Positions 29,990 to 56,165 of a DNA stretch of 64,000 bases are shown in pieces (position 1 is the stretch's first letter; the number at the start of each line of letters is the position of its first letter). The notes under the pieces are model-generated. The model made no database searches. It saw only the letters and a program-made list of their open reading frames with translations, and was not told the origin of the DNA. This DNA is from Mesobacillus jeotgali (GTDB lineage: Bacteria; Bacillota; Bacilli; Bacillales; Cytobacillaceae), in assembly GCF_900166585.1 (NCBI RefSeq), contig NZ_FVZC01000005.1, positions 1 to 64,000 of the forward strand, read 5' to 3'. A program made the position numbers and the translations under genes.

Positions 29990-30494
<505 letters not shown>

Positions 30495-30767: not shown

Positions 30768-31165
30768 CTTCTTGGGCAGATGATCCCCTTTTATGTTACC
30801 GAAAACCCTTCCTCTATTCTTTTTCGGGCACATGCTTCAGTTTTATGTTACCGTAATCCATTCTCCAATTCTTTTTCGGGCACATATTACTCTTTTATGT
30901 TACCGAAATTCCTTCTTCGCTTATTTTTCAGGCAGATGTTCCCCTTTTATGTTACCGTAATCCCTCTTCAGATTATTTTTCGGGCAGATGTTCCCCTTAT
31001 ATGTTACCGAAATTCCTTCTTCGCTTATTTTTCGGGCACATGTTCCCCTTTTATGTTACCGTAATCCATTCTCCAATTCTTTTTCGGGCACATATTACTC
31101 TTTTATGTTACCGAAATTCCTTCTTCGCTTATTTTTCGGGCACTTGTTTTCAATTTTTATTATAG
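30768..31165. repeat. Tandem array of about eight 52-bp repeats (array A)
   Basis: The anchor TCGGGCA (with variants) recurs at 30772, 30824, 30876, 30928, 30980, 31032, 31084 and 31136: exactly 52 bp each time with no insertion or deletion. Conserved parts are TCGGGCACATGTTCCCC, TTTTATGTTACCG and a T-rich run before the next anchor. Two sub-variants alternate in the middle (GAAATTCCTTCTTCGC and GTAATCCATTCTCCAA). The outer units are more diverged. The unit is related to that of array B near 53.5-54.3 kb. Open frames through it reflect the repeat and are not credible genes. Confidence 0.95.
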
Positions 31166-31193: not shown

Positions 31194-31233
31194 ATAAAAA
31201 AAAGCAGCTGGATCGTCATCCAGCTGCTTTTTC
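31194..31233 (-). terminator. Terminator of the str operon after tufA
   Basis: A perfect stem AAAGCAGCTGGAT/ATCCAGCTGCTTT around a short loop with A and T runs on its two sides, 34 bases after the tufA stop. Confidence 0.93.
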
Positions 31234-31266
31234 CGGATCGTCACCCGGATTTATTTTCTTTTAAAA

Positions 31267-32454
31267 TTACTCTTGGATAGTCGCAACTACGCCAGCGCCT
31301 ACAGTACGGCCGCCTTCACGAATTGAGAACTTAGTTCCTTCTTCGATAGCGATTGGAGCGATTAGTTCAACAGTCATTTCGATGTTGTCGCCAGGCATAA
31401 CCATTTCTACGCCTTCAGGAAGGTTACAGATACCAGTTACATCAGTTGTACGGAAGTAGAACTGTGGACGGTAATTAGTGAAGAATGGAGTGTGACGTCC
31501 ACCTTCTTCTTTTGAAAGAACGTAAACTTCAGCTTTGAACTTTGTGTGTGGCTTAACAGAACCTGGCTTAGCAAGTACTTGGCCACGCTGGATTTCTTCA
31601 CGTGATACACCACGAAGAAGAGCACCGATGTTGTCTCCAGCTTCTGCATAGTCAAGAAGCTTACGGAACATTTCTACACCTGTTACAGTAGTAGATTTTG
31701 GTTCTTCAGTCATACCGATGATTTCTACAACGTCACCGACTTTAACTTGTCCACGCTCAACACGGCCAGTAGCAACTGTTCCACGGCCAGTGATTGAGAA
31801 TACGTCCTCAACAGGCATCATGAAAGGCTTGTCAGTGTCACGTGCTGGAGTTGGGATGTACTCGTCAACAGCAGCCATAAGTTCGTTGATTTTTTCTTCC
31901 CACTCAGGCTCTCCTTCAAGAGCTTTAAGAGCAGAACCTTTGATAACTGGGATGTCATCGCCAGGGAAGTCGTATTCAGAAAGAAGGTCACGTACTTCCA
32001 TTTCTACTAGTTCAAGAAGTTCTTCGTCATCAACCATGTCACACTTGTTCATGAATACAACAAGGTAAGGTACGCCTACCTGACGAGAAAGAAGGATGTG
32101 CTCACGAGTTTGTGGCATTGGGCCGTCAGCAGCAGATACTACTAGGATACCGCCGTCCATTTGAGCAGCACCAGTGATCATGTTTTTAACATAGTCAGCG
32201 TGTCCTGGGCAGTCAACGTGTGCATAGTGACGAGTTGCAGTTTCGTACTCAACGTGTGCAGTTGAGATTGTGATTCCACGCTCGCGCTCTTCTGGAGCAG
32301 CGTCGATTTGGTCGTAACCGCGTGCTTCACCGCCGCCTACTTTAGAAAGAACAGTAGTGATAGCAGCTGTTAGAGTAGTTTTACCATGGTCAACGTGACC
32401 AATTGTACCGATGTTAACGTGTGGCTTAGAACGATCGAATTTAGCTTTTCCCAT
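31267..32454 (-). CDS. tufA: Translation elongation factor Tu
   Basis: A 395-residue GTPase delivering aminoacyl-tRNA. G1 GHVDHGKT, G3 DCPGH and G4 NKCD are visible; the C-terminal [19 protein letters not shown] and [15 protein letters not shown] are typical. Last gene of the str cluster, 122 bases after fusA, with an intervening hairpin. Ends at a strong terminator. Confidence 0.99.
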
Positions 32455-51373: not shown

Positions 51374-52771
51374 TTAGCCTCTTTTCCATCTGATGCCCTG
51401 CGGAGTGTCCTCGATGATGATCTTCATTTCCTTCAGCTGGTCACGGATTTCATCTGCCAGCTTGAAGTTCCGTTCCTTCCGTGCCTGCGTCCTTTTTTCG
51501 ATCAGTGCCTCGATTTCTTCATCCAAGAGCTCTTCATCCTTCAGAGATAGACCAAGCACGCCAAACAAAGTTTCAAATTCATTCACGAATGACCTGATCA
51601 CTTCTGCAGAAGTATTTTTCTCCATCAAGTACAGATTGGAGAGTTTGGATAGGTCAAACAGAACGGATACAGCATTCGCTGTATTGAAATCGTCATCCAT
51701 TTCCTTGATAAACTGACCGCGGAGTGCAGCGATTTTGTCAAGCCATTCCTGATTATTATCGGTCAGTTCAGCGCTTGCATCCATACGATGCTTCAGGTTT
51801 TGGTAAGAAGTCTTCAACCGTTCAAAGGCAGCCTTTGTATTTTCAAGCAGCTCTTCACTGTAATTGATTGGGTTACGGTAATGCACAGACAGCATGAAGA
51901 ACCTTAATACCTGCGGATCATGAAGCTTGATGATGTCATGGACTGTGACAAAGTTGCCAAGTGACTTGGACATCTTTTCATTATCGATATTAATATAGCC
52001 ATTATGCATCCAGTAACGGGCAAATGTCTTTCCTGTCAGTGCCTCTGACTGGGCGATTTCATTTTCATGGTGAGGAAATGCGAGGTCCTGTCCTCCTGCA
52101 TGGATATCGATTGTATCTCCCAGATATTCACGGGCCATCGCCGAGCACTCGATATGCCAGCCCGGACGGCCTTTGCCCCACGGACTATCCCATGAAATCT
52201 CACCTTCCTTTGCCGTTTTCCAAAGAACAAAATCCAGAGCGTCCTGTTTCTTTTCACCGATCTGGATTCTCGCTCCTACTTTTAGTTCTTCGATGGACTG
52301 GTGGGAAAGCTTCCCATATCCATTGAATTCCCTCGTGCGGTAATAGACATCACCGCCAGACTCATAAGCAAAGCCTTTTTCAATTAGCGCGCTTATAAAC
52401 TCAATGATCAAATCCATAGTTTCAGTTACCCTCGGGTGGGCATCGGCCTTTTTGCAGCCAAGTGCATGAACATCTTCAAAATAGGCATTGATGAATCGTT
52501 GAGCGATTGTCGGTACATCTTCACCGAGCTCGTTCGCAGCCTTGATAAGTTTATCATCCACATCGGTGAAATTAGAGATATATCTGACATCATATCCGCG
52601 GAATTCCAGATAGCGGCGCACTGTGTCAAAAACAATTGCCGGGCGGGCATTTCCAATGTGGATATAGTTATAGACAGTAGGTCCGCAGACGTACATCTTA
52701 ACCTTTCCCTCTTCTAGCGGGATAAACTCTTCTTTATTTCGAGTAAGTGTATTATAGATTTTAATTCCCAT
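51374..52771 (-). CDS. cysS: Cysteinyl-tRNA synthetase
   Basis: A 465-residue class I synthetase: HIGH motif as [15 protein letters not shown] as [10 protein letters not shown], and zinc ligands in [17 protein letters not shown] and FPHHENE. The C-terminal helical domain binds the anticodon. Its start overlaps the 3' end of cysE by 11 bases, so the two are translationally coupled and both under the cysteine T-box. Confidence 0.98.
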
Positions 52772-53447
52772 TTCCCATGCCCCTTCCTTGATTCACAGCT
52801 TCAAGCTCTTCTTTTATTTTGACCAGTTCAAGTTCTTTTCTTAATTTAACCAGTTCCATTTCAATTTCATGACATCGATCTGCTACAGGATCCGGCAAAT
52901 CGCGATGATTGAAATCCTTTTTGACTCGGATCCCATCCTGAATGACGATTTTACCCGGGATGCCCACAACAGTGGAGTTCGGCGGTACGTCTTTCAGAAC
53001 AACTGATCCTGCGCCAACCTTGGAATTCTCCCCAATCGTGATAGAGCCTAATACCTTTGCGCCAGTCGCTATCAGCGCATTGTCTTTCACCGTCGGGTGG
53101 CGTTTGCCCTTTTCCTTGCCGGTACCGCCCAGGGTCACCCCCTGGAATACCGTGACATTATCACCAATCTCGCATGTTTCGCCAATGACGACGCCCATTC
53201 CGTGATCGATGAAGAACCTTCTGCCAATCTTTGCTCCCGGATGGATTTCAACCCCGGTGAAAAAGCGGCTGATCTGCGAGATAGCCCTTGCAATAAAATA
53301 AAACTTGCGCTTGTAGAAAGCATGCGCCAAACGATGGGACCAGATCGCATGCAATCCCGCGTAAGTCAAAATCACTTCAAGCGCGCTCCTGGCAGAAGGG
53401 TCTTGATCAAATACAACTTCTATATCTTCCTTCATCATTTTAAACAT
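52761..53447 (-). CDS. cysE: Serine O-acetyltransferase CysE
   Basis: A 228-residue enzyme making O-acetylserine for cysteine synthesis. The left-handed beta-helix hexapeptides ([28 protein letters not shown] ... [17 protein letters not shown]) carry the catalytic His. The ATG at 53447 follows GGAGGATTTCAAC and gives the family N-terminus [19 protein letters not shown]. The frame continues upstream in phase to 53846 through the 52-bp repeats, but this extension is repeat sequence and probably not translated as part of CysE. Confidence 0.96.
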
Positions 53448-53546
53448 GTTGAAATCCTCCTTTTTAATAAAATTCCATTGCATTTTCGCTCTGGTTGCGA
53501 GCACCTTTAGAGCCGAGATTCGGCTATAACCTGATTGCTTTGGATG

Positions 53547-54270
53547 TATGTGACCGAAATCTTGCTGTTTCAGACTTTTCGGGCATATATTCACCGTTTT
53601 TGTGACCGTCACCTTGCTGTTTCGGCTTTTTCGGGCACATGTTCTTCGTTTATATGACCGAAATCTTACTCCTCCGGCTTTTTCGGGCACATGTTCCTCG
53701 TTTATGTGACCGAAATCTTGCTCCTCCGGCTTTTTCGGGCACATGTTCTTCGTTTTAATGACCGAAATCTTACTCCTTCGGCTTTTTCGGGCACATGTTC
53801 TTCGTTTATGTGACCGAAATCTTGCTCCTCCGGCTTTTTCGGGCACATGTTCCTCTTTTATGTGACCGAAATCTTACTCCTCCGGCTTTTTCGGGCACAT
53901 GTTCTTCGTTTTAATGACCGAAATCTTACTCCTCCGGCTTTTTCGGGCACATGTTCTTCGTTTTAATGACCGAAATCTTACTCCTTCGGCTTTTTCGGGC
54001 ACATGTTCCTCGTTTATGTGACCGAAATCTTGCTCCTCCGGCTTTTTCGGGCACATGTTCCTCGTTTATGTGACCGAAATCTTGCTCCTCTGGCTTTTTC
54101 GGGCACATGTTCTTCGTTTATATGACCGAAATCTTACTTCTCCGGCTTTTTCGGGCACATGTTCTTCGTTTATGTGACCGAAATCTTGCTCCTCCGGCTT
54201 TTTCGGGCACATGTTCCTCGTTTATGTGACCGTCAGCTCCTGAATCCAGCCTTTTCGGGCACATGTTCCA
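53547..54270. repeat. Tandem array of about fourteen 52-bp repeats (array B)
   Basis: The anchor TCGGGCA recurs at 53579, 53631, 53683, 53735, 53787, 53839, 53891, 53943, 53995, 54047, 54099, 54151, 54203 and 54255, exactly 52 bp apart each time. The unit contains TCGGGCACATGTTC, TTTATGTGACCGAAAT and CTCCTCCGGCTTTT. Inner units differ at a few positions (CTTGCT or CTTACT; CCTCG or TTCGTTTTAAT); the outer two on each side are more diverged. CCGAAA and TTTCGG within the unit can pair. The array lies between the T-box terminator and cysE and is therefore part of the cysE-cysS transcript on the minus strand. Confidence 0.97.
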
Positions 54271-54287: not shown

Positions 54288-54565
54288 CATATAAAAAAGC
54301 GCCCCTGTCGTAAACGACAGAGACGCTTGGTATGCGCGGTTCCACTCTGTTTAGGCTGCGCGTTTGAAAGGCGCGGCCTCAACTTTAACCTGTTAACGGG
54401 AGGTCCCGCCCAATACTACTGTGGCTATGTTTGCCTTTTCGCACAGGGACTCTGAGGCGCATTTCAAAAAATGAGAGGCCTGAACCACTTTCAGCCGGTG
54501 ATGGTTCTCTCTAATAAGCGTCATCCTTCTACTTTTCCTCTTCAACACTTTAGTTATATAGAATT
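54288..54565 (-). promoter_or_regulatory. Cysteine-specific T-box riboswitch of cysE-cysS
   Basis: The minus strand carries the T-box sequence AGTGGAACCGCG (54335-54346), able to pair with the uncharged tRNA acceptor end, and a stem I region beginning AGAGAGAACCATCACCGGC. The bulge GAAATGCGCC has TGC (54459-54461) as specifier, a Cys codon. A terminator hairpin follows. When tRNA-Cys is uncharged, the antiterminator forms and cysE-cysS are transcribed. The same arrangement stands between gltX and cysE in B. subtilis. Confidence 0.95.
54293..54328 (-). terminator. T-box regulated terminator
   Basis: On the minus strand GCGTCTCTGTCG and CGACAGGGGCGC pair around TTTA, followed by six T. It lies immediately before the repeat array. 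Confidence 0.92.
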
Positions 54566-54622: not shown

Positions 54623-56080
54623 TTAGCCTAAAAGCTTCTGGACTCTTTCCTTAACCTTGTTTTTTCCGATCAGTTCCATGGCGAGCATCAGGTCCGGTCC
54701 ATGAGTCTGTCCGGTCGCAGCCGCACGAACTGGCATGAACAGCTTTTGGCCTTTATGGCCTGTGCCCTTCTGGACAGCTTTTACTGCCGCTTTGATTGCG
54801 TCTGCCTTGAACTCTTCGATCTGCTCGATTTCACCAAGGAACGCTTTCAGCACTTCTGGAACCTGCTCACCTGCAAGAACTTCTTTTGCCTCTTCGTCAT
54901 AGTTTACCTCATCGCGGAAAAATAAATCAGACATCTCAACGATTTCTGCTCCGAAGCTCATTTTATCGTGATACAAAGAGATGAGGCCGCGAACCCAGGC
55001 ATCCTCTTCTTCCGTACGATTCTCGCTGACTTTGCCCGCTTTGATGAGATGTGGAAGTGCAAGCTCAACAACCCGGTCCAGATCAGCTTTTTTCATATAC
55101 TGGTTATTCATCCAGGCAAGCTTCTGCTGATCAAATAACGCCGGAGACTTTGAAAGCCTTGCCGGATCGAAAATTTCGATAAACTCTTCCTTTGTGTAGA
55201 TCTCCTCCTCGCCTGATGGAGACCATCCAAGCAGGGTAATGAAGTTAAACAATGCTTCAGGCAAGTAGCCAAGCTCCTCATACTGTTCGATGAACTGGAT
55301 AATCGATTCATCACGCTTGCTAAGCTTCTTGCGGCTTTCGTTGACGATCAGCGTCATGTGGCCAAATATAGGCGGCTCCCAGCCAAATGCTTCATAAATG
55401 ACAAGCTGCTTCGGGGTATTGGAGATATGATCATCTCCGCGAAGAACATGGGAAATCTTCATTAAATGGTCGTCGAGGACAACTGCATAGTTATAAGTAG
55501 GCGTGCCATCTTTCTTGACGATGACAAAATCACCCATTCCATCTGACTCAAAACTAACGTCGCCTTTTACCATATCATCAAACTTAAGGATTTTGCCTGC
55601 CGGTACCTTGAAACGAAGGCTAGGCTGGCGCCCTTCTTTTTCAAACTGCTCCTTCTGTTCTGCTGTCAGGTTGCGGCAGCGGCCAGAATAGTGAGGGGTT
55701 TCATTGCGGGCTGCCTGTTCTTCACGCTCAGCCTCAAGCTCTTCCTCTGTGCAATAGCACTTATAGGCATGGCCTTTCTCCAAAAGCTCCTGATTGTATT
55801 TCTCGTAAATATGGTTACGCTCTGACTGACGGTACGGTCCATATTCTCCGCCAACATCGACACTCTCATCCCAGTCGATTCCAAGCCACTGAAGGTACTT
55901 CAATTGGCTCTGCTCTCCGCCTTCGATATTGCGTTTCTTATCTGTATCTTCGATGCGGATGATGAACTTTCCGCCTCTGTTGCGTGCGAATAGATAATTG
56001 AATAATGCTGTACGGGCATTCCCGATATGTAAATGTCCAGTCGGACTCGGTGCGTAACGCACCCGGATATCTGCTGACAT
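54623..56080 (-). CDS. gltX: Glutamyl-tRNA synthetase
   Basis: A 485-residue class I synthetase: [15 protein letters not shown] carries the HIGH motif and KKLSKRDES the KMSKS motif; a CYC...C set near residue 110-140 is a possible zinc site. The ATG at 56080 ([15 protein letters not shown]) follows AGAGGAGGATTCACT; the frame to 56110 is rejected. In Bacillus GltX also mischarges tRNA-Gln for GatCAB. It is 85 bases after ispF. Confidence 0.98.
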
Positions 56081-56165
56081 AGTGAATCCTCCTCTAATAT
56101 TGCTGTCCATTATTGTATCACTATCGATATATAAAGCGGAAGTGGCTTATCAAGCTGCCTTCAAT

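Follow-up and report, generated by a model that had tools for sequence, protein, structure and literature searches.

Why do the units of a tandem array change in sequence and not in length, and to what does such an array belong? This question is raised by a 52-bp repeat in the gltX–cysE interval of the window, the whole stretch of 64,000 nucleotides analysed here (Table 1). TRF reports a period of 52 with 13.9 copies, 89% matches and 0% indels for this array, and 13 recognisable units could be located, spaced by 52 bp in 12 out of 12 intervals. The roughly 14 units of exact periodicity described in the initial annotation, with point differences between units yet no indels, are thus borne out; the placement upstream of cysE is likewise correct, since the array lies between the T-box leader and cysE. 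The array is antisense to both neighbours, cysE and gltX, begins about 25 nt past the terminator of the T-box leader, and matches the profile of the A family (see below) with 53.9 bits (E 8e-15). An Rfam search of the array returned nothing above the gathering score, the T-box beside it being the sole such match. On the minus strand, an open frame of the array continues into cysE, giving a 361-codon ORF (window 52761-53846) that starts inside the array; as cysE comes with a start and a ribosome site of its own, the shared frame was judged fortuitous. A coding repeat was rejected, as 52 is not a multiple of 3.

Table 1. Features of the two array loci in the window and the four parent families of the genome.
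Feature	Position	Strand	Unit or sequence	Period	Basis or remark
52-bp tandem array between gltX and cysE	53547..54268	+	TTCGGGCACATG...TGTGACCGAAA	52 bp	TRF and A-family profile
T-box leader of cysE	54316..54554	-			RF00230, 97.3 bits
Intrinsic terminator of the T-box leader	54293..54329	-			Sequence inspection
cysE	52761..53447	-			ORF and ribosome site
gltX, gene further upstream	54623..56110	-			ORF; name by sequence recognition
Second array, A family, between tuf and rpsJ	30774..31148	+	7.2 units	52 bp	TRF and A-family profile
tuf (EF-Tu)	31267..32454	-			ORF
tuf terminator	~31196-31234	-			Sequence
S10 leader before rpsJ, far side of the second array	30311..30413	-			RF03136, 38.9 bits
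Parent family A			CGGGCACAT	52 bp	Parent nuclease C7:411040-411948
Parent family B			ATAAGGGTG	53 bp	
Parent family C			TATCGGACA	52 bp	
Parent family D			AAAGCTGTC	52 bp	

A link to cysE in particular is not sustained by comparison within the genus. The CysE protein was matched in 21 of 21 genomes (own included), and of these 21 gltX–cysE loci three are cut by contig ends and 18 could be read whole. Eight of the 18 contain no recognisable unit at the site, some of them retaining vestiges; the unit count is 13 in the own genome and 10, 6, 2, 2, 1 or none in congeners. If second-strand matches of the two longest arrays are set aside, all but one of the units at this site share the orientation seen in the window. 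Units that are so variable or absent indicate that the array is dispensable for cysE, and we regard it as most probably a passenger located between the T-box terminator and cysE.

The window holds a second array of the same family, between tuf and rpsJ (38.7 bits against the A-family profile), which begins about 47 nt past the tuf terminator and in which TRF detects a 104-bp higher-order repeat. Among 20 genomes of the genus, including the own, 13 carry a 52-bp array here, and three of the 20 stop short of rpsJ. Read by eye, these arrays differ in unit sequence and keep a constant orientation; in several genomes the core motif is altered, and both arms of the unit (see below) are altered together.

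Searching the own 4.63-Mb genome for two copies of TCGGGCA, with the spacing left open between 37 and 67 bp, gave 116 matches versus none for the reversed control. Among the 100 of these matches listed, 94 are spaced by exactly 52 bp and the rest by 47, 48, 51, 53, 54 or 62 bp. Pairs spaced by 52 bp mark 12 loci besides the two in the window. Pattern-free TRF on 1.2 Mb of the genome (period at least 18; rows can overlap) also shows that 52 bp dominates with 26 rows, followed by 21 bp (17), 18 bp (9), 24 bp (8) and 53 bp (4), all else reaching 3 at most. A stricter form of the pattern is present in 14 of 41 genomes, own included, and in an order-wide sample 37 of 397 genomes and 17 of 135 genera match, the control giving none. 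Carriers among the matches listed include Mesobacillus, Neobacillus, Cytobacillus, Oceanobacillus, Evansella, Anaerobacillus, Litchfieldia, Sutcliffiella and Ureibacillus. Some names are at odds with their Bacillaceae-type arrays (L048 and L063, Chryseobacterium sp. ISL-80; L100/L120, Paenibacillus sp. BSR1-1; L124, Bacillus subtilis DE0224), and these records are probably mislabelled or contaminated assemblies. In Oceanobacillus luteolus, an array of 52-bp period (L126:3523-3968) runs over a 150-codon ORF and has a composition unlike that of the other arrays.

The genome searches proposed in the initial annotation thus place the cysE array as one dispersed member of a chromosome-wide satellite family. 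Irregular spacing of copies elsewhere, named there as a sign of passive slippage, did not occur: over 145 array rows, some arrays being counted on both strands, 762 of 907 intervals measure 52 bp and 68 measure 51 bp. The suggested amplification with homogenisation holds as turnover and homogenisation, as the number of units swings between species; copy number and presence vary widely even among close relatives.

Clustering of 998 ORFs around 128 array loci, which gave 44 clusters with at least three loci, points to one recurrent neighbour. All nine members of a NERD cluster, from nine loci in different genomes, lie within 250 bp of an array, compared with 3/3 and 3/4 for the runner-up clusters and 0/31 for the largest, ABC-transporter-like cluster (26 loci). 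The nine NERD ORFs are 17-217 bp from the array, eight of them on the same strand as TTCGGGC. A NERD gene adjoins the array in only 9 of the 128 pattern-found loci; the rest are solo arrays.

The array-adjacent protein comprises about 300 residues with a NERD domain and a CxxC..CxxC zinc ribbon. Four such proteins score 53.2, 63.1, 61.0 and 27.7 bits against NERD (PF08378; Pfam cut-off 22.1). Its predicted fold (mean pLDDT 90.4) has PD-(D/E)XK nucleases as the nearest structures, in a search that effectively covers the protein up to residue ~201 and barely beyond, and D71 and K86 are invariant in 29 sequences; predicted fold and invariant residues fit a PD-(D/E)XK-like nuclease. Among 120 of 1164 homologues listed, the source names are ‘nuclease-related domain’, ‘NERD’, ‘nuclease’, ‘hypothetical’ and a few zinc-ribbon or ribosomal-S27AE-type labels. 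The only mention of NERD in the available portion of PMC10910872 is in the legend of a figure devoted to putative CRISPR auxiliary genes. A defence-system model was rejected, since for three proteins PADLOC gave no more than a 14-bit match of one of them to PglW. Phage or plasmid cargo was rejected as well: a search of 50,697 phage records and 72,556 plasmid records with one NERD protein (L123) gave no match, and thus no sign of transfer between cells.

The association also holds in the reverse direction. The NERD profile matches 251 of 397 genomes at 1e-20, and the subfamily (<1e-60) is found in 145. Seventy subfamily genes were examined, 30 fetched and 40 chosen from the remaining listed matches so as to avoid contig ends. 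An array of 51-53 bp lies no more than 250 bp downstream in 61 of the 68 genes placed by script, and in 65 of 70 after hand placement of four (L218, L229, L240 and L251). The first downstream array has a period of 52 bp in 56 rows, 51 in seven and 53 in one, three of these 64 rows being farther off. Five genes have no close downstream array (L199, L224, L227, L228 and L243), although L224, L228 and L243 have one upstream. In a class-level search that included other orders, a 51-53-bp array follows each of the 24 fetched genes scoring above 340 bits, nine of these genes belonging to the earlier set. Several subfamily genes end at a contig break on their 3' side, as expected if repeats cause breaks. 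The subfamily is present in 36 of the 37 genomes with CGGGC-type arrays versus 109 of 360 others (Fisher p 2e-16, uncorrected for relatedness). The lone miss, G293, may be due to the order-wide scoring, which considered five candidates per genome. The 109 genomes are not exceptions as such, because other members of the subfamily have arrays that differ in sequence. A point against the association is G001, which lacks a CGGGC-type array despite five NERD matches.

The own genome contains 11 NERD matches, four of them from the subfamily, and each of these four has its own array 60-101 bp downstream. These parent arrays differ in sequence (Table 1). When 20 merged arrays of 50-54 bp from the window and 800 kb of the genome, among them one array counted as two because a tile edge divides it, were compared with the parent profiles, ten matched one of the four parents (E <0.003), both window arrays falling to family A; four matched weakly (E 0.06 to 3) and six did not match. 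Outside the TRF arrays of the same 800 kb and window, the parent profiles gave no match below 1e-3. AATGCAG-type arrays at C4:36240, C8:744387 and C9:203659 have no parent nuclease in this genome, and a similar unit stands beside a NERD gene in G005 (L373); orphan arrays of this type may outlive their enzyme.

The more alike two nucleases are, the more alike are their units (Mantel r 0.34, p 0.001; 67 proteins); the correlation also holds for pairs below 60% identity (r 0.26, p 0.001) and fades below 50% (r 0.08, p 0.08). On a tree of 65 proteins, the CGGGC type requires 8 changes versus 15.2 when shuffled, with none of 500 shuffles as low. As linked inheritance would give the same correlation, it supports recognition of the unit by the nuclease and does not prove it.

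We favour, with a probability of roughly 0.58, the reading that these arrays are satellites owned by the nuclease and spread by nicking and recombination at replication forks. The NERD nuclease would bind its own array as DNA at the inverted half-sites, with copies recurring on the same side of the helix after every five turns, and would nick or cut the array at the fork. Repair by recombination would then lengthen and homogenise arrays and may occasionally seed new ones elsewhere, mostly behind the 3' ends of genes.

The orientation of the arrays bears on this reading and on the first alternative. In five single-contig congeners, all 34 clusters of at least two units lie on the minus strand of the right replichore or the plus strand of the left. 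Including single hits, 56 of 59 follow this polarity, the three exceptions being isolated matches; the count assumes that the origin can be located by means of cysE (115-121 kb into the contig in four genomes, shifted in G018) and leaves out one G019 hit and all hits of a sixth genome, G015. In the own genome, all 14 A-family loci follow the local GC skew, taken over the 8-9-kb locus with arrays included or, for two loci, over the window, and the C and D arrays change strand where the skew flips, near C9:1.30 Mb. Orientation in family B is mixed, with the parent locus running against the polarity rule and two more loci being ambiguous. Units are pyrimidine-rich in the sense of the nuclease gene in 58 of 68 cases, so that part of the polarity could reflect strand composition bias; such a bias does not account for the constant direction of the conserved motif. 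The gene beyond the 3' side of the array points at it in 94 of 125 rows, which are ORF-based and count some arrays on both strands, and the other side is even (63 to 59). Arrays thus prefer gene 3' ends.

Polarity relative to replication in 34 of 34 clusters would also suit a host function, in which the arrays are fork-oriented landmarks for pausing, segregation or a domain boundary, with NERD as their reader or editor, and are kept by selection and not by selfish spread. The tuf–rpsJ array, which in the 13 genomes that carry it changes in sequence and, as judged by eye, retains its orientation, speaks for this possibility. We nevertheless consider it unlikely, because copy number and presence fluctuate among close species, 9 of the 70 NERD genes carry in-frame stops, and each genome holds several families of unrelated sequence.

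A passive minisatellite, in which slippage and unequal crossing-over act without a dedicated protein and 52 bp is merely inherited, would account for the turnover of copy number, for higher-order 104-bp repeats and for the families of 51 and 53 bp, the latter keeping its 53-bp period in dispersed arrays as well. The behaviour of the period itself makes this improbable. Among nucleases sharing 35-45% identity, units are 41% alike versus 40% for shuffled units, and the arrays still measure 51-53 bp; length is therefore held where sequence is not. Moreover, the 52-bp class is tied to one NERD subfamily: 27 NERD genes of other subfamilies from 12 genomes include none with a 48-56-bp array. The fixed orientation relative to replication also counts against a passive origin. 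VNTRs and minisatellites in general resemble the present arrays in copy-number turnover and homogenisation and differ in having no linked nuclease, family-wide fixed period or polarity.

Of the 27 control genes, 17 have an array within 300 bp whose smallest period is 20, 21 or 42 bp. A second NERD clade (L305-L334; in the own genome L336, L338-L340 and L342), with proteins of about 320-375 residues and a different C-terminus, carries its 20-21-bp arrays upstream or downstream (these 17 genes, one at 42 bp). Six more distant relatives of the subfamily have 41-bp arrays in three cases, a 51-bp array in one and none in two; the 41-bp arrays follow L384, L385 and L388, which belong to other families of the class. 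B-DNA makes one turn every 10.4-10.5 bp, and periods of 20/21, 41/42 and 52 bp are near two, four and five helical turns. Hence, the constraint on spacing proposed in the initial annotation is supported by a 52-bp period that persists in arrays no more alike than shuffled ones, and its five-turn argument by the arrays of relatives near two and four turns, as it would predict. The existence of 51- and 53-bp families shows that the ruler is not absolute and that the period is partly just inherited. A 26-bp half-period was set aside, as later patterns imposed that spacing.

The segment between CGGGC and ACC consists of two complementary arms. In 118 representatives less than 72% alike, taken from 121 sequences scanned, Watson–Crick pairs occur at six arm positions in 64, 70, 90, 87, 75 and 58 cases, where 39, 32, 36, 45, 34 and 42 are expected from the columns; four shifted registers gave no such excess in the same set. 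Mispairs at the six positions comprise 52 G-T and 40 A-C, and deviations from consensus pairs in 69 nuclease-linked arrays comprise 99 G-T versus 107 A-C. Without a preference for G-T (G-U) the arms seem to matter as DNA and not as RNA, and the sequence pattern favours arms that act as DNA. A dyad site and a cruciform would both fit the arm data, which cannot tell them apart. Of the 69 linked arrays, 32 have an inverted repeat above the 95th percentile of shuffles and 21 one above the 99th, so that the repeat is not strong in every family; in 13 of the 32 stronger cases the arm centres are 16-17 bp apart, the most frequent distance. A G.A mismatch in the A-family stem is imposed by the pattern, in which CGGGC and ACC are fixed, and carries no evidential weight.

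These data also bear on an RNA system, in which the array would be transcribed behind the nuclease gene and its hairpins would bind or restrain the nuclease. In type III toxin–antitoxin systems of the ToxIN type, a repeat RNA restrains a toxin nuclease. The two have in common that short tandem repeats adjoin a nuclease gene, and arm complementarity is preserved here by covariation; the present array, in contrast, stands behind and not before the gene, occurs as dispersed solo copies and gives no sign of pairing at the RNA level, G-T and A-C deviations being about equal. In 94 of the 125 rows above, a dispersed array runs antisense to the gene pointing at it, the periods lie near whole turns of DNA, and the cysE array has no Rfam match above the gathering score. 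An RNA system is accordingly improbable, to about the same degree as a passive minisatellite.

REPtrons (REP/RAYT) share with the present system dispersed repeats with inverted arms, parent copies that flank a dedicated nuclease gene and several families per genome; dispersed palindromic repeats, a REP/RAYT feature, are found here as well, and 32 of the 69 linked arrays have a strong inverted repeat. IS200/IS605 elements resemble it in hairpin-forming arms and in an orientation tied to replication, which the accessible part of PMC6006769 describes for elements that target the lagging-strand template. REP/RAYT tags are given as GTAG or CGTC in the accessible part of PMC3733652. The nuclease of REPtrons is of the HUH/Y1 type, whereas a PD-(D/E)XK-like NERD is predicted here, and the present units form head-to-tail arrays of fixed 51-53 bp with replication-polar orientation and a parent array that is downstream of nearly every gene examined. 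Unlike IS200/IS605, tandem arrays are found and not single insertions, and no TnpA (Y1_Tnp) transposase is needed. That the arrays are REP/RAYT-type elements or IS200/IS605 derivatives moved by an HUH transposase can be given very little credence, since G005, G014 and G015 all have CGGGC-type arrays and no Y1_Tnp (PF01797) match, and the recurrent neighbour is NERD, with no Y1/HUH neighbour recognised among the ORF clusters. A RAYT/REP transposase as a requirement was rejected on the same grounds, although an HUH protein outside PF01797 would revive it. CRISPR arrays are similar in their regular repeats of constant unit length beside a nuclease gene and differ in their unique spacers; here the whole 52-bp unit is repeated and many arrays are dispersed, in agreement with the exclusion of CRISPR in the initial annotation. 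The interpretation given there therefore stands with respect to constrained spacing, CRISPR, turnover and homogenisation, and finds no support with respect to a link specific to cysE.

Beyond the nuclease-owned satellites of one subfamily, a more general view, for which we see an even chance, is that each NERD clade owns a satellite, located beside its gene and in trans and oriented by the fork, with a unit length in whole turns (two, four or five) independent of sequence. The nuclease would then act as a ruler on phased inverted sites, either driving fork-coupled amplification or being steered by it. No description of a NERD-linked satellite system was found in the open-licence PMC literature, which suggests that this nuclease-and-repeat system has, as far as found, not been described before. 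If true, these findings would provide a lead to the function of a large nuclease family that annotators have left without one, and would mean that satellite DNA in bacteria can have an enzyme dedicated to it. The setting of repeat length would also become testable, in a system where length remains at five turns even when the sequence is entirely different.
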